From: Acidimicrobiales bacterium
Lineage (GTDB): Bacteria; Actinomycetota; Acidimicrobiia; Acidimicrobiales; Acidimicrobilacustridaceae
Direction of reading: 5' to 3'
Assembly (NCBI GenBank): GCA_026419545.1
Contig: JANZZE010000009.1
Location: 1 to 35,116, forward strand
Length of the DNA: 35,116 nucleotides
Shown here: positions 2,601 to 9,387 of the stretch, one piece after another
How positions within the stretch are numbered: position 1 is the stretch's first letter
Layout of the letters: each line of letters starts with the position of its first letter
Position numbers and translations under genes: made by a program
The notes under the pieces: generated by a model
The model's input: only the letters and a program-made list of their open reading frames with translations
Told to the model about the DNA's origin: nothing
Database searches by the model: none

Positions 2601-4373
2601 GTGCCGATCTGTGGAGACGTGCAGTTCATAGCGCCCCGGCGGTCGCTGGAGGTGTTGGCCGTGTTCGCCAGCACCGTGCTGGCCACGTTGGCAGCTCTCG
2701 ACGCCCGACCGCGTCCTGCCGACGCTGCCGGAGGGCCGCTCTACGGCGTCGACATTGCGAATTACCAGCATCCCAATGGCGCGCCCATCAACTGGCGCCT
2801 CGTGAAGGCCTCCGGCAACGCGTTCGCCTTCATCAAAGCGACCGAGGGACCCATCAGCTGCGGCGGGAGCTACTTCACCAACAACTGGTTCGCGCGGGAC
2901 TGGGATGATGCCGGCGCAGTCGGTCTGTATCGAGGCGCATATCACTTCGCTCGACCGATGCGACCGGTCACGACCACTGCCATCGACCAAGCCCGCTACT
3001 TCGTGAGGATGACCGGCCCGATGCAGGGACCTCGGGATCTCCCCGCGGTACTCGACCTCGAGGTGACCTGCGGTCTTTCGCCGCCTGAACTCGCGACCTG
3101 GGTCCGAACCTGGCTCGAGGAGGTGACCCGGCTCACTGGCCGCCGTCCAATCATCTATACGGGCCCGAACTTCTGGGCCACAGCGATGGCCGGTAACTCC
3201 ACCTTTGGTGCCTACCCGTTATGGCTTGCCCGGTGGGGAACCTCTTCGCCGAACCCGCTCCCGAAGAGCTGGAACACCTGGACGTTCTGGCAAACAGGAG
3301 TGGACTCGGTCGCCGGCATCGTCGGCACCGTCGACGTCAACCAGTTCAACGGGGATCTCAAACGCTTGGCGGCGCTGAGCGACTTCGTGCGTCCCTTCCC
3401 GACCAGCCCAACCGGGCACGTCGAGTACGCCAAGGCCTCGGGCCGTGACGAGGCGGTCGTCAAGGGCTGGGCCGCCGATTACGACACCGGCGATCCAGTG
3501 AAGTTGCAAGTCAGCATTGACGGGGTCCTACAGCCCGATGCCACTGCCGACGAGTGGCGACCCGATCTCACCGACCAACTCTGGCTGTGGGGGCCGTTCC
3601 ACGGCTTCACCCTGACCTTCGACGGGCTAGCACCCGGCAGGCACCACGTGTGTGTTGTCGCCCGCAACATCGGTCCCGGCGCCGACACCCACTTCGGGTG
3701 TCACTTCTTCGATATGCCAACCGGGCCACCCATCGGCAACCTCGAGTATCTGGCCTTCGAGCCTGGCGGCTTCCACCTGCGCGGGTGGACGCTGGATCCC
3801 GACACGGCCGCGTCACTGTTGACGGTGGTGACAGTCGACGGTATCGGTGCCGTGGCCACACAAGCCGATGTCCATCGCCCTGATGTCGGCGCGTTCTTCC
3901 CCGACTGGGGGCCGAGCCACGGCTTCGACATCCTAGTCCCGACCCCACCTCCTGGTCCTCACACGCTTTGCGTCTACATAGGCAACGTCGGTCCGGGTGC
4001 CGACATCGTGCTCGGGTGTTGGCCAGTGATCGCCCCGCAGCCCAACCCGATCGGCGGGGTCATCGAGGCCTCAGTAGGTAGCGCTTCGGTATCGCTCGCT
4101 GGCTGGGCACTCGACCCTGATTCGAGTGCCTCGCTGGACATCGCCATTACCGTCGACGGGAAGTTGGTCGGCATTTTCCCGACAGACGTGGACATCCCCG
4201 TGATCGGTGTGTTCTTCCGAGGCTGGGGTTCGGTGCACGGTTTTCGGGTGACGATCAACAACCTCACACCGGGCAACCACCGCATCTGCGCTATCGCAAA
4301 GAACCTCGGCGCCGGCACCGACACCACCCTCGCCTGTGCCCCCCTCTCCTCGGGTGCTTTTCGCCCCGCATAG
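2601..4373 (+). CDS. Secreted GH25 muramidase with three C-terminal beta-type repeats
   Basis: The 590-residue product starts with RR plus a hydrophobic stretch and an Ala-rich cleavage region near residues 38-43 (ADAAGG), so it is probably exported. Residues about 48-250 form a GH25 lysozyme domain: YGVDIANYQ (D51), GAYHFARP, and the catalytic signature VLDLEV (D152, E154). GH25 enzymes cut the beta-1,4 MurNAc-GlcNAc bond of peptidoglycan. Three repeats of about 95 residues follow, starting near residues 272, 379 and 485. Each has a GW..D motif, DG, an R-x-D or related segment, (W)G..HGF, and two Cys around a NxGxGxDT stretch, suggesting one disulfide per repeat. They may bind cell-wall polymers. 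The start is uncertain: GTG at 2601 keeps the signal peptide n-region, while GTG at 2661 has a better-spaced GGAGG but loses it. Confidence 0.85.
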   Translation: MPICGDVQFIAPRRSLEVLAVFASTVLATLAALDARPRPADAAGGPLYGVDIANYQHPNGAPINWRLVKASGNAFAFIKATEGPISCGGSYFTNNWFARDWDDAGAVGLYRGAYHFARPMRPVTTTAIDQARYFVRMTGPMQGPRDLPAVLDLEVTCGLSPPELATWVRTWLEEVTRLTGRRPIIYTGPNFWATAMAGNSTFGAYPLWLARWGTSSPNPLPKSWNTWTFWQTGVDSVAGIVGTVDVNQFNGDLKRLAALSDFVRPFPTSPTGHVEYAKASGRDEAVVKGWAADYDTGDPVKLQVSIDGVLQPDATADEWRPDLTDQLWLWGPFHGFTLTFDGLAPGRHHVCVVARNIGPGADTHFGCHFFDMPTGPPIGNLEYLAFEPGGFHLRGWTLDPDTAASLLTVVTVDGIGAVATQADVHRPDVGAFFPDWGPSHGFDILVPTPPPGPHTLCVYIGNVGPGADIVLGCWPVIAPQPNPIGGVIEASVGSASVSLAGWALDPDSSASLDIAITVDGKLVGIFPTDVDIPVIGVFFRGWGSVHGFRVTINNLTPGNHRICAIAKNLGAGTDTTLACAPLSSGAFRPA

Positions 4374-4539: not shown

Positions 4540-6897
4540 GTGCCCACCAGGTCCGTGCTTCCTGGAGAGCCAAAGCGACTCGTCGTGCTGGCCAGCGGAA
4601 TGGGATCGAGGCTTCGGGCAAAGGCAACGGCAAAGCCACTTGTTCGCTTGACAGGGACCAGCCTGATCGAGCGGACCCTTGCAACCGCCCATGAGGCCGG
4701 CTTCGAGCAGGTAATCGTGGTCACCGGTTACCGATCCTCTGAGGTCGACCAGCACGTGTTTGCGATCGCGCGCCGTCGTGGTTTCTCGGTCAGGATCGTC
4801 CACAACGACCGGTACGAAGAAGGTAACGGTCTTGCCGTGCTAGCCGCCCGAGCCGTGGTGGGCGATGAACCTTTCGCCTTGATCATGGGTGACCACGTCT
4901 TTGCACCGTCGCTGCTCGCTCGTCTCCGCGACGTTCGCGTGAGACCGGCGGAAGTCCTGGTGTTCGTCGACCGCCTACTCGGTCGGGCAGTGGGTGTCGA
5001 CACCGAGGACGCCATGAAGGTCACGCTGGAGGAGAATCGAGTCTGTTCTGTGAGCAAGGACCTCCCGGTGTACGACGCCTTCGACGTCGGAGCGTTCGTA
5101 TGCACGCAGGCAATCTTCGAGGCCATCGAGATCGCGATGAGACGGGGCGACAGCAGCCTCGCGGGTGCCATACAAGTCCTTGCGTCCAGAGGGCAAGCAC
5201 AGGCGGTCGAGGTGAAGGAAAGCGAGTGGTGGTTCGACGTCGACACACCCCGAGATCTCCACAACGGCGCCCGCTTCCTGTTGCGCGGTGCCGGCAAAGC
5301 CCTTGACGGCGCCCTCGCGGCAAGGGTGAACCGCGTGCTCTCCCAACGGGTCGTGACGCCGGTGTTGCTACGTGCTGGGCACCTCACCCCCAATCAAGTC
5401 ACCCTCGTCGCCTTCGCCGCCGCCCTGGTAGCTGCGCTGATGTTCGCGGCTGGCGCACCGGTCGCAGCCGCGCTGCTCGTCTGGCTCGCCAGCGTACTCG
5501 ACGGCAGCGACGGCGAGGTCGCCCGGCTCACGTACCGATCGTCACCCTACGGCGGCTTCCTCGACGCCACTCTCGACCGAGCCGCCGACAGCCTGTTGCT
5601 CACTGGCGCCGGGATCTACCTCGCCCGGAGCGCATCGCTTGCAGAGCTCCTCGGTGCCTTGCAGGTCCCTGTCGCGCTCGGTATCACCGGCCTCGCCATC
5701 ACCGGCCACCTGCTCGTGAGCTACACGTCAGCGAAAGCGGCGGTCGACCTCGGGCATCGCTATGAAGGCCGGCTGGTGGGAAGTGGCCACGGCCGCGATC
5801 TCCGTCTCGGGATCCTCACCGCCGGCGCACTGGGCGCGTGGTTCCATCCGATCTGTTTGGCCACAGCCCTGGCGCTCGTCGGTCTCCTGGGCTGTTGGAT
5901 CACGATTGTGCGGCTGACCGAATCCTGGTGGGCACTGGGCCCTGGCCAGCCGTTCTTCGGTGTACGCGCCGTTGCCCTCGACTTCGACGGCACCGTGGCC
6001 GACTCGATGGGCTTCCTCACCGACCTCGCCGTCGACTTGCTCGTCGAGGAACTCGGTTTCGATCGGCCAACCGCGCTCGAACGATACCGGGCTACGGCGG
6101 GAGCCGACTTCAGCAGCCAGCTCGAGGAGCTCGCTCCTTGCGATCCACGTTGCACCGAGGTCGCCCGGCACTTCGAGGCAGCCAAGGCCGACTGGATGGA
6201 GAACTGCTCGCCATTCGATGACGTACCAGGTGCGCTCGCTCGCTTGGCGAAACTCGGAATACCGGTACTCGTGTGCAGCAGCACACGCGTCGGTCTCGTA
6301 CAAGACTTTTTCAAAGCGAACCAACTCGAGGGCCTGGTGACCACGATCTCCGGCTGGGCTCCGGGACGTGACAAGCGCACCCAGCTCGCTTCGTGGCTAC
6401 GCGAACAACACCTCATCCCCGACACTGTGGTATTCGTCGGCGACGCGAGGCGCGACGAGGAACTCGCAAAGTCGGTCGGAGTTCGGTTCGTCGGTGTGGT
6501 TAGACCTGGTCAGCCAGATCTGCTCGCGGGAAGCGCAGCACCAGTGGTGAGCTCGTTGCTCGACCTCGCAGCCGCGGTCGAGCGAGCGCACCGAACGCCG
6601 GTCCGGCTGACCAGCTACGCCCCAGGCCAGCGTGACGCCGCCAGCCACCTTGGCCGAGTGACCGAGCCTCAGCACCAGCGGGCGATCTCACTCGTCGAGG
6701 AAGACGGGAGCCAGGTGGCAGACGTCATTGGAACGTACGAGCTCCCGTCGGTCACCCACCAGAGCAACCGTGGTGATCGAGCAGTTCGACACCCGCACAT
6801 GGCGGTAGATCGCAGGTCCGGTCTCGAGCGCCCAGGCGACAGCACCCCTGACCACCGCGTCGTGCGTGAACACGACCGCAGTACCGCTCGGAGCTAA
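4540..6897 (+). CDS. Three-domain fusion: nucleotidyltransferase, CDP-alcohol phosphotransferase, HAD phosphatase (candidate di-myo-inositol-phosphate synthase)
   Basis: The 785-residue chain has three enzymes in order. Residues about 12-235 are a sugar-phosphate-type nucleotidyltransferase: LASGMGSRL, AKPLVRL, MGDHVF. Residues about 260-470 are a membrane CDP-alcohol phosphotransferase with the complete signature D321-x2-D324-G-x2-A328-R329-x8-G338-x3-D342-x3-D346 among several TM helices. Residues about 475-700 are a HAD hydrolase: ALDFDGTVADS (D481, D483), CSSTR, a Lys in GRDKRTQ, and VFVGDARRDEE. The first two domains match the bifunctional IPCT/DIPPS enzymes that make CDP-inositol from inositol-1-phosphate and CTP, then join it to a second inositol phosphate. 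The HAD domain could remove the remaining phosphate to give di-myo-inositol phosphate; that is inference. Other CDP-activated head groups are possible. The last ~69 residues lie antisense to the next gene and look non-native. Confidence 0.82.
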   Translation: MPTRSVLPGEPKRLVVLASGMGSRLRAKATAKPLVRLTGTSLIERTLATAHEAGFEQVIVVTGYRSSEVDQHVFAIARRRGFSVRIVHNDRYEEGNGLAVLAARAVVGDEPFALIMGDHVFAPSLLARLRDVRVRPAEVLVFVDRLLGRAVGVDTEDAMKVTLEENRVCSVSKDLPVYDAFDVGAFVCTQAIFEAIEIAMRRGDSSLAGAIQVLASRGQAQAVEVKESEWWFDVDTPRDLHNGARFLLRGAGKALDGALAARVNRVLSQRVVTPVLLRAGHLTPNQVTLVAFAAALVAALMFAAGAPVAAALLVWLASVLDGSDGEVARLTYRSSPYGGFLDATLDRAADSLLLTGAGIYLARSASLAELLGALQVPVALGITGLAITGHLLVSYTSAKAAVDLGHRYEGRLVGSGHGRDLRLGILTAGALGAWFHPICLATALALVGLLGCWITIVRLTESWWALGPGQPFFGVRAVALDFDGTVADSMGFLTDLAVDLLVEELGFDRPTALERYRATAGADFSSQLEELAPCDPRCTEVARHFEAAKADWMENCSPFDDVPGALARLAKLGIPVLVCSSTRVGLVQDFFKANQLEGLVTTISGWAPGRDKRTQLASWLREQHLIPDTVVFVGDARRDEELAKSVGVRFVGVVRPGQPDLLAGSAAPVVSSLLDLAAAVERAHRTPVRLTSYAPGQRDAASHLGRVTEPQHQRAISLVEEDGSQVADVIGTYELPSVTHQSNRGDRAVRHPHMAVDRRSGLERPGDSTPDHRVVREHDRSTARS

Positions 6898-7314
6898 AGA
6901 GCCGAACAAGTCGTCGAGTCCTTCTGCAACTCGGGCGTTGAGTTCTCCAACTGTCTCGCGGCCCACCAGCTCGAGCGCGTGCGGGGCATTACGCCAGATC
7001 TCCCATTCGTCGGGCCAACGCCGGGCGATCTCGTCTTCGCTGTACCCCTGCCAGGGTCCGACACGCAGCTCACCGAAGCGCTCGTCAATCGCCGGGGTAC
7101 GCCCAAGACGTGTCGCCAAAGGTTCGGCGGTTTGTAGCGCCCGGGCCAACGGACTGGACACGAGCAGATCAATCGATCGCGACTGCAACACGTCCGCGAC
7201 CGCTTCGGCGGCTGGACGCCAGGTCGGCAACAGTCCCTCATCACTCCACCCCATCGCCCTACCGGCGTCGTTGGAAGCAGTCCGTCCGTGACGAACGAGA
7301 TGTACGCGCTTCAT
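6688..7314 (-). CDS. Histidine phosphatase (phosphoglycerate mutase-like)
   Basis: This 208-residue protein has the branch-1 histidine phosphatase signature LVRHGRTASN near its N-terminus, the acid residue in ERFGELRVGPWQG, and the second catalytic His in VVFTHDAVVRG. Such enzymes form a phospho-His intermediate and hydrolyse small phosphate esters; the substrate is unknown. AAGGA lies 9 nt before the ATG at 7314. The gene converges on the three-domain fusion and its last 210 nt overlap that reading frame. Its own frame reads well to the end (SNDVCHLAPVFLDE), so the overlap probably belongs to this gene. A phosphatase beside a phosphate-handling fusion may be functionally linked, but that is only suggested by position. 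Confidence 0.88.
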   Translation of the reverse strand: MKRVHLVRHGRTASNDAGRAMGWSDEGLLPTWRPAAEAVADVLQSRSIDLLVSSPLARALQTAEPLATRLGRTPAIDERFGELRVGPWQGYSEDEIARRWPDEWEIWRNAPHALELVGRETVGELNARVAEGLDDLFGSLAPSGTAVVFTHDAVVRGAVAWALETGPAIYRHVRVSNCSITTVALVGDRRELVRSNDVCHLAPVFLDE

Positions 7315-7540: not shown

Positions 7541-8473
7541 TCAGCGATGGCCGTGACGCGTGGTCGGCTTCCGGTGTGGTGAGCCGACAAGACGTTCGGT
7601 CCGTAGACCTCGGGAACCTCCGTCACCTTTGCGCTTGCGAGCCGCCGCAGGTGGGGGCATGGCGCCGCCTCGCTCGACGAACTCGCGCAGCGCCCGCTCC
7701 ATCTCCTGAGCAAAGATGAGTTGCACGGCGCGCAACCCCTGCGGTCGTAATGCCTCGTACGCCCGCACGATCTCGTCCGGCGCGCCCCGCGCGCCGAATC
7801 CTGTGCTAGCCCGATCACTGAAGAACTCAACGAGCTCCTCGGCCAAGCGTCTGATGCGTTGGCGTATCAGCTCTTCGGCTTCGGCCACGGTGACCGGATC
7901 AATACCGGCCCGAATGAGTGCCAATCCGATCTCGAGCAGCCCGGGACTCGGAACGAGATAGGCCGCTGGGCGGCTGTGCTTCTCCCGCTTGATGAACCCG
8001 ATGCGCTCGAGTTCGGCCAATGTTCCCGGTCGCGGGTGGTCAAGCTTGTCGAGCAACTCCTGCTCGGTGAACACCGCGGGTCGATCGTCTGACCACGGCG
8101 CCTGGAGCTGGTCTCCCATACCGAGCCACTCGCCGAGCGAGTCGTCACCCGCTTCAATCCGGCTGAGTGCGTCACGGATGGCGTCAAGTCGCAGCCCGCG
8201 ATCCTGCAACTCAGCGATGAGTTCGAGCCGACGCAGGTGATCAGGTCCGTAGTAGGCGACCCGACCTCGACGTTCTGGCGCAGGCAGTGTCCCTTTGGAT
8301 TGGTAGAACCGGATCGTACGAGTCGGTACGCCGCTGCGAGCCGCGAGTTCATCGATCGTGATCCACTCAGGTTCGGGCGCCCGCCCAGGTTCCTGCGGCG
8401 GCTCCGGCGGACCCACACCATCGCCAGTTGAGTCGCTGGGGATGTTCGCACCGGTCGCCGCCATGACCATCAT
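7541..8473 (-). CDS. MerR-family transcriptional regulator
   Basis: The MerR DNA-binding domain is clear at about residues 35-110: WITIDELAARSGVPTRTIRFY, KGTLPAPERRGR, YYGPDHLRRLELI. A long C-terminal region without metal-binding Cys suggests an organic or lipid-type signal, or none. Three in-frame ATGs occur at 8473, 8470 and 8464; 8473 overlaps the upstream stop as ATGA, implying translational coupling to the diiron gene. The open frame extends further upstream but there it is only antisense-like sequence inside that gene. The last 40 residues are unusually Arg/Lys-rich. It probably regulates the shared promoter at 9396-9424. Confidence 0.85.
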   Translation of the reverse strand: MMVMAATGANIPSDSTGDGVGPPEPPQEPGRAPEPEWITIDELAARSGVPTRTIRFYQSKGTLPAPERRGRVAYYGPDHLRRLELIAELQDRGLRLDAIRDALSRIEAGDDSLGEWLGMGDQLQAPWSDDRPAVFTEQELLDKLDHPRPGTLAELERIGFIKREKHSRPAAYLVPSPGLLEIGLALIRAGIDPVTVAEAEELIRQRIRRLAEELVEFFSDRASTGFGARGAPDEIVRAYEALRPQGLRAVQLIFAQEMERALREFVERGGAMPPPAAARKRKGDGGSRGLRTERLVGSPHRKPTTRHGHR

Positions 8474-9387
8474 GATGGCCCAGGAGCTGGTACTGCGGCG
8501 ACCAAACCGAGCGCCCGCCACACCGGGCGGGTGAAACGATTGATGACCCCGATGCCTTCGAGCAGGCCGGTCAAGCGGCCCAAGTCGCGGATCACTCGCT
8601 CTCGGTGCACCGGGTTCTTGCGTGCTTGCCGATAGCCGTCCTCGATGCCAAGCGTTTCGTACACGGCCGGGTTCACGAGGGCATCTGCCACGCCTCGCAC
8701 GATAAACGGGGCACGGATCATCGCAACAAGCCGCTGGAACCGGCTCAGGGTCGGCCAAACCTCAGCAATGTAGGTACGGGCGAACGACATGTGCCGGGCC
8801 TCTTCGAGAACATGGATCTGGGCAATCCGGCGAGAAGTGGGGTGCACCCGATCATCCTTCATCGTCGCTCGGTTCGAGATGTCGAGCAGTTCTTCGGCTG
8901 CGAGGATCGCGATGTAGGACTCGGGCCCTCGGCTGGTTGCCTTCAAGAAGTTGCCGAGCCGGCGAAGCAGGGGGGAGACCTGGTACGCGGGGGTACCGGC
9001 TTGGCGGATCAGCTCGCCGAACATTGCCGAGTGCCGGCATTCGTCGGCGGTTTCGATCAACAGGTAACGGTGCGACCCGTCGTCGGCTGGCAAGTCGTAC
9101 AGATGGCGCAGGACGAGATGCATCAGGATGTTCTCGAACCAGATACCTGCGCTGCACAGCGCTGCGACCTCGTGACGGCTGTAGGCGATGCGCTCCTCCT
9201 CAGTCATCGCCGCCCAAGCCGCTGTGCCATACAACGGCAAGAACTCTGGTGGGAGGTAGTAGGCGGAGTCATCGAGCGGCACCGACCAGTCGACGTCAGT
9301 GAACGGATCGAAGCTCTGGCGCTCGCTGGCGGCCACCAGACGGCTGGCCTTCTCCGCGAGCGCTGGTGGGGAAAGCGTTACTGCCAT
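8470..9387 (-). CDS. AurF-like diiron oxygenase
   Basis: The 305-residue helical protein carries paired metal motifs of the AurF (p-aminobenzoate N-oxygenase) family: E112-x3-E116-C-R-H119 and E195-E196-A-R-H199, with further acids at E75-type and E165/E166 positions. AurF enzymes use two irons and O2 to oxidise aryl amines to nitro groups; many family members have unknown substrates. The gene lies first in a two-gene unit with a MerR regulator (ATGA overlap). There is no biosynthetic cluster beside it, so a stress or lipid-type oxidation is as likely as an antibiotic role. The ATG at 9387 lies 8 nt after a -10 box, suggesting a leaderless message. Confidence 0.8.
   Translation of the reverse strand: MAVTLSPPALAEKASRLVAASERQSFDPFTDVDWSVPLDDSAYYLPPEFLPLYGTAAWAAMTEEERIAYSRHEVAALCSAGIWFENILMHLVLRHLYDLPADDGSHRYLLIETADECRHSAMFGELIRQAGTPAYQVSPLLRRLGNFLKATSRGPESYIAILAAEELLDISNRATMKDDRVHPTSRRIAQIHVLEEARHMSFARTYIAEVWPTLSRFQRLVAMIRAPFIVRGVADALVNPAVYETLGIEDGYRQARKNPVHRERVIRDLGRLTGLLEGIGVINRFTRPVWRALGLVAAVPAPGPS

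Follow-up and report, generated by a model that had tools for sequence, protein, structure and literature searches.

A three-domain protein from an Acidimicrobiales genome is a candidate trifunctional di-myo-inositol-phosphate synthase with its own HAD phosphatase domain

The window, which is the whole analysed stretch of 35,116 nucleotides from contig JANZZE010000009.1 of an Acidimicrobiales bacterium, contains a gene that encodes an IPCT-like nucleotidyltransferase, a DIPPS-like CDP-alcohol phosphotransferase (CDP-AP) and a HAD phosphatase in a single chain. The fusion probably serves as a trifunctional di-myo-inositol-phosphate (DIP) synthase in which the HAD domain would replace the IMPase-like phosphatase (probability roughly 0.64); the substrate of the HAD domain and the final product are those that we infer. 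The new part is the third, phosphatase domain on the known IPCT/DIPPS pair, and DIP genes in non-thermophiles have already been published. The initial annotation had considered that the same fusion might already be known with a different product. A full-text literature search, outside which most subscription journals lay, uncovered no earlier description of the three-domain fusion, with another product or otherwise. The features of the locus are as follows:

4540 to 6897, + strand: open reading frame of the three-domain fusion, 785 aa, GTG start and no internal stop (translation)
4576 to 5283, + strand: IPCT-like nucleotidyltransferase domain, aa 13-248 (Pfam/NCBIfam; 2xme, 4jd0 and 4mnd by sequence and fold)
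5305 to 5937, + strand: DIPPS-like CDP-AP membrane domain, aa 256-466 (Pfam; fold alignment with 4mnd; model pLDDT 91.9)
5500 to 5577, + strand: complete CDP-AP catalytic signature DxxDGxxARx8GxxxDxxxD, aa 321-346 (translation; residues invariant in 41 sequences)
5794 to 5805, + strand: R419-D-L-R422, RxxR acceptor-phosphate motif, equivalent of RsPIPS R153 (alignment to the PIP-synthase-like protein of the host; PMC4634129)
5911 to 5913, + strand: R458, second acceptor-phosphate arginine (TM6), equivalent of RsPIPS R191 (same alignment; PMC4634129)
5962 to 6594, + strand: HAD phosphatase domain, subfamily I with helical cap, aa 475-685 (Pfam HAD_2; invariant columns; stand-alone model)
6688 to 6897, + strand: C-terminal tail (aa 717-785), lying opposite the gene that follows downstream (codon-position test)
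6688 to 7314, - strand: convergent gene of the histidine phosphatase family (PF00300), a neighbour outside the system

The presence of three enzyme domains in one chain, as stated in the initial annotation, is borne out by the Pfam matches to the 785-aa open reading frame, which all exceed the gathering cut-off (NTP_transf_3, 15-143; CDP-OH_P_transf, 283-388; HAD_2, 480-653). The fusion is neither due to chance nor to misassembly because a third-codon-position bias extends over all three domains and the same architecture is found in other genomes. In the alignment with the nearest homologue, a 72% identical protein from a compost metagenome (L030), the three domains have accumulated 113, 99 and 83 changes at the third codon position, as compared with 30-43 at positions 1 and 2, and the HAD domain is thus under purifying selection as well. 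For codons 716-785 of the same alignment, the excess at the third position is gone (20/11/12), and the last 210 bp of the fusion are shared with the histidine phosphatase gene on the opposite strand; L030 has the same overlap with this antisense gene. Therefore, the tail represents an overlap and no domain, and the functional protein probably comprises aa 1 to about 690. The contig belongs to a metagenome-assembled genome (MAG) and about 70 residues of the tail are unconstrained, which could be taken as signs of an assembly or annotation artefact or of a decaying gene. However, the third-position bias throughout the three domains contradicts this explanation, the recurrence of the fusion in independently assembled genomes, which come from many different samples and phyla, refutes it, and its probability is practically negligible.

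The nucleotidyltransferase precedes the CDP-AP domain, which is the IPCT/DIPPS-type order recognised previously, and the A. fulgidus IPCT-DIPPS (4mnd) is the closest solved structure by sequence (E 9.6e-48, aa 13-408; about 30% identity) as well as by fold. For an AlphaFold model of aa 1-690 (pLDDT 91.9, pTM 0.75), 4mnd, 4jd0 and 2xme were the top Foldseek matches, and VIA-align ranked 4mnd first (Z 36.9, rmsd 2.3, 407 residues covering aa 10-465), the next match having a Z score of 29.0. The possibility that the first domain is most closely related to enzymes using another substrate, which had been raised as an objection, was not borne out: its nearest solved relatives are the inositol-1-phosphate cytidylyltransferases 2xme and 4jd0 rather than enzymes acting on phosphocholine or phosphonates. 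The best NCBIfam match of the fusion is the Thermococcales IPCT/DIPPS model NF041135 (210.7 bits, aa 14-399; 218-291 bits for the other fusions). Since this score is far below the cut-off of 580, the fusion is not filed as that equivalog. The PIP synthase model NF045883 also scores below its equivalog cut-off (64.4 versus 170 bits). Among the two-domain proteins, L017 and L021, both of the actinobacterial family f74, are possible pseudoenzymes, as their CDP-AP signature is degraded (LGGVDGE, LNGLLNRM and LAGVDGE, LGGLTNRM, respectively).

In PIP synthases, the phosphate of the inositol-phosphate acceptor is presumably bound by two arginines, R191 of RsPIPS and R153, which is part of an RxxR motif, and mutants at these positions lost most of their activity (PMC4634129). 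In the fusion, R419/R422 and R458 align with the acceptor arginines of the PIP-synthase-like protein of the host and are kept in DIPPS-type relatives; over 41 sequences R419, R422 and the residues of the CDP-AP signature are invariant, and R458 is nearly so. This pattern of conservation argues for an acceptor of the inositol-phosphate type. A phosphorylated acceptor would in turn give a phosphorylated product, and a phosphatase would be needed. As judged from homology, the IPCT domain would convert CTP and L-myo-inositol-1-phosphate, made by the Ino1 of the host, to CDP-inositol and pyrophosphate, and the six-helix CDP-AP domain would transfer phospho-inositol from CDP-inositol onto a second inositol-1-phosphate held by R419, R422 and R458, yielding phosphorylated DIP. 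The C-terminal HAD domain may finally remove the terminal phosphate to give DIP, as the fusion itself, the logic of the pathway and the fold class suggest. The main uncertainty of the DIP synthase reading lies in what the HAD domain dephosphorylates, for which we infer phosphorylated DIP (P-DIP).

The HAD motifs of the fusion are all intact by the PF13419 criteria (D481xD483GT, CSST at 579-582, K612, GD at 634-635 and D639), and the DxDGT, CSST, K and GDxxxD motifs are invariant in nine aligned fusions ranging from Actinomycetota to Chloroflexota and Planctomycetota. The stand-alone model (pLDDT 91.7) adopts the HAD fold with a helical cap and matches a range of HAD hydrolase structures, among them MtlD and a HAD pyrophosphatase from Bacteroides thetaiotaomicron. 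As all listed matches are of equal rank (Z 19-22), the substrate cannot be read from the fold, and the fold search was uninformative as a guide to it. In an alternative reading, the fusion makes phosphorylated DIP, the HAD domain hydrolyses either the pyrophosphate of the first step, as the pyrophosphatase match could indicate, or inositol-1-phosphate, and an IMPase-family enzyme completes DIP synthesis. However, this match is no better than those to many other HAD proteins, and a chain that cleaved inositol-1-phosphate would be squandering both of its own substrates. The gene neighbourhoods bear on this alternative in both directions. In a Bacteroidota genome (L253:4082-8425), the order is MIPS, three-domain fusion, IMPase-family gene and a short open reading frame; the Inos-1-P_synth open reading frame lies directly upstream in the same orientation and runs into the start of the fusion, the stop of which is overlapped by the IMPase-family gene by 4 bp. 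A similar IMPase-family gene overlaps the stop of the fusion in L033, several IMPase-family matches occur in the host genome, and an IMPA gene is located near the IPCT/DIPPS gene of a hadal thaumarchaeon (PMC7265257). By contrast, no adjacent IMPase gene is present at the other fusion loci with a readable downstream side. Taken together, this division of labour appears rather unlikely, even though the IMPase-family genes of L033 and L253 mean that the HAD domain may not be the sole or actual phosphatase for the intermediate. The candidates for a P-DIP phosphatase are thus the fused HAD domain with its intact motifs and the IMPase-family enzymes also encoded in the host and two relatives. As to the other downstream neighbours, a GDPD-family gene lies just behind the fusion of L035, near the contig end, and the short open reading frame of L253 resembles that gene at its start and matches CoA_binding_2 in its remainder, perhaps reflecting a deletion or an assembly joint.

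In a scan of 35 genomes for stand-alone members of the fused HAD family in genomes with two-domain IPCT/DIPPS proteins, a strong match was obtained only in Thermotogae S016_39, and 103 Thermotogota genomes gave one further match on a short contig. Of the stand-alone HAD proteins whose gene neighbourhood could be read, the closest is from Thermotogae (L207:8543-9166, - strand); it is 34-38% identical to the non-actinobacterial fused HAD domains, and its genome also encodes a two-domain IPCT/DIPPS (L043). The neighbouring genes belong to the PFK, AP_endonuc_2 and Creatininase families and include two Zn-dehydrogenases, a set which we take to resemble the T. maritima inositol-catabolism operon TM0411-TM0416. 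The latter operon has been mentioned before (PMC5931981), and the link of the L207 locus to inositol catabolism is suggestive only.

CDP-inositol could also be formed for a different inositol phosphodiester, such as glycerophospho-inositol or an inositol lipid. In Bacteroides and Prevotella, an NTP-transferase, a CDP-AP and a HAD protein, and thus the same three activities, are encoded beside MIPS, the latter two being fused in P. veroralis, and the authors propose the synthesis of phosphatidylinositol without a phosphorylated intermediate (PMC9246714). In our search of Bacteroidota, four loci (L254, L255, L256 and L261), which were equated with the BVU_RS13095/13105/13115 clusters by gene content only, contain MIPS beside an IPCT-like nucleotidyltransferase and a CDP-AP open reading frame of 311-337 aa. 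However, these MIPS-linked CDP-AP proteins are of a different subtype lacking RxxR, and their surroundings yielded no HAD of the fused family. The alignment shows that the CDP-AP domain of the fusion does not belong to this subtype of about 310 aa; when aligned to PIPS/DIPPS, the fusions have all three arginines, and AfDIPPS, the closest fold, does not process lipids (PMC4634129). Likely, the four clusters represent a separate inositol pathway, and it is quite improbable that the fusion makes a product other than DIP from CDP-inositol.

At a threshold of 1e-20, none of 60 relatives encodes a match to the window protein (0/60). In the phylum, 24 of 396 genomes, the window's own included, have matches at 1e-25. 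The other matches are two-domain proteins or fragments, in or beside which a HAD of the fused family was not detected. The three-domain fusion is present in a minimum of five bacterial phyla: beyond the window, 12 further members were identified in Actinomycetota, Chloroflexota, Planctomycetota, Bacteroidota and a delta-proteobacterial MAG. The 13 sequences, including the window and with L036 and L208 counted apart, comprise the following, L030 to L035, L037 and L040 coming from a scan of GTDB contigs:

L030: compost MAG ZC4RG19, nearest homologue
L031: Acidimicrobiia
L032: MAG from deep-sea nodule-field sediment
L033: delta-proteobacterial MAG, whose sample name Meg22_1214 appears in PMC10553843
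L034, L037 and L040: Chloroflexi
L035: Ca. Scalindua sediminis
L036: fusion cut at the contig end; the full copy in the same genome is L208
L209: second fusion copy in genome G455
L253: Bacteroidota genome

In the tree, the 13 fusions are placed on one side of a branch with a support of 100/100, together with a two-domain protein from Methanosarcinales (L038:125-1456), which is nested beside L033 inside the fusion group. This position suggests that the fusion originated once and that the HAD domain was lost once; whether L253 belongs inside the group or at its base is uncertain. The spread over phyla points to horizontal transfer between them. Ino1 was found in nine of the ten fusion genomes searched, the tenth being a genome of 1.7 Mb. 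We slightly favour the view that the HAD domain is a dedicated P-DIP phosphatase, by which one polypeptide would lead from CTP and inositol-1-phosphate to DIP, and that this protein arose once and spread between phyla, from abyssal sediment to compost at 60-70 °C.

The suggestion that DIP synthesis would be notable in an apparent mesophile finds no support. The IVYWREL composition gives an estimated growth temperature of 50 °C for the host and 49 °C for ZC4RG19, as compared with 38 and 50 °C for genomes of the same family and 25 °C for one of the same order; the estimate is noisy and yields 83 °C for genome G100, presumably Rubrobacter xylanophilus. The GC content of the 16S rRNA fragment of the host is only slightly higher than in relatives (0.611 versus 0.598 and 0.591). 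The MAG with the closest fusion, ZC4RG19, originates from compost whose temperature was mostly 60-70 °C (PMC8434746), and the host is plausibly a moderate thermophile. Moreover, IPCT/DIPPS genes in non-thermophiles are no novelty, having been published for marine thaumarchaea, one of them with an IMPA gene nearby (PMC8397731, PMC7265257). The fusion L032 was recovered from deep-sea sediment in a field of ferromanganese nodules (PMC10367259), and thus the three-domain form is not restricted to hot habitats.

The host genome is a MAG of 3.07 Mb (344 contigs, 90.9% complete), which also encodes the PIP-synthase-like CDP-AP. The ino1 gene, a search for which had been recommended, is present in a single copy on another contig than the fusion (PF01658 match at G000:C313:1988-2314), and its product scores slightly below the cut-off of TIGR03450 (624.4 versus 638 bits). 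Inositol-1-phosphate should therefore be available in the host. As Ino1 occurs in 56 of 61 genomes of the order, its mere presence lends weak support to DIP synthesis. PF07994 proved unsuitable as an ino1 marker, giving no match in the host genome, in which PF01658 finds the full Ino1. The fusion gene begins about 170 bp after a GH25 gene (2601-4373, + strand) and is followed by the convergent gene; thus, it appears to form its own transcription unit outside an operon. Elsewhere in the window, a gene of the AurF-like diiron N-oxygenase family adjoins one for a MerR-family regulator (8470-9387 and 7541-8758, both on the - strand).

If the reading as a DIP synthase is correct, a single gene would suffice to make a protein-stabilising solute, and the phosphatase of the last step would differ from the IMPase type now assumed. 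So far, this step has been assigned to an IMPase-like phosphatase of a generic kind, and a HAD domain tied to the synthase is a specific candidate. Beyond hot marine vents, Acidimicrobiia, Chloroflexota and Planctomycetota would also join the groups with predicted DIP synthesis. For T. maritima, Rodionov and co-workers reportedly proposed in 2007 a DIP route in which an IMPase-like phosphatase acts on a phosphorylated intermediate. This pathway (MIPS, dipA, dipB and the phosphatase) has the same predicted reactions with phosphorylated DIP, and the linkage to MIPS recurs in L253, whereas the fusion has the three later activities in one chain and a HAD domain instead of the IMPase-type phosphatase. 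The bifunctional IPCT/DIPPS proteins, that is, 4mnd, the NF041135 family and the two-domain proteins L006 and L007 from genomes which we take to be Rubrobacter, have the domain order, fold, catalytic signatures and acceptor arginines in common with the fusion; however, the fusion has an additional C-terminal HAD domain and groups apart from L006 and L007. The PIP synthases RsPIPS (5d92) and MtPIPS (6h53) resemble it in the CDP-AP fold and the arginines for an inositol-phosphate acceptor but use CDP-diacylglycerol and have no nucleotidyltransferase or HAD domain fused. The inositol-lipid cluster of Bacteroides and Prevotella ties the same three enzyme classes to MIPS, but the published fusion has two domains, the proposed product is a lipid and the comparable CDP-AP proteins are devoid of the acceptor arginine motif. 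Finally, the mannitol-1-phosphate dehydrogenase/phosphatase MtlD (7ocs) is a precedent for a HAD domain fused to the synthase of a phosphorylated sugar alcohol, although the synthase domains are unrelated and the analogy is functional only.
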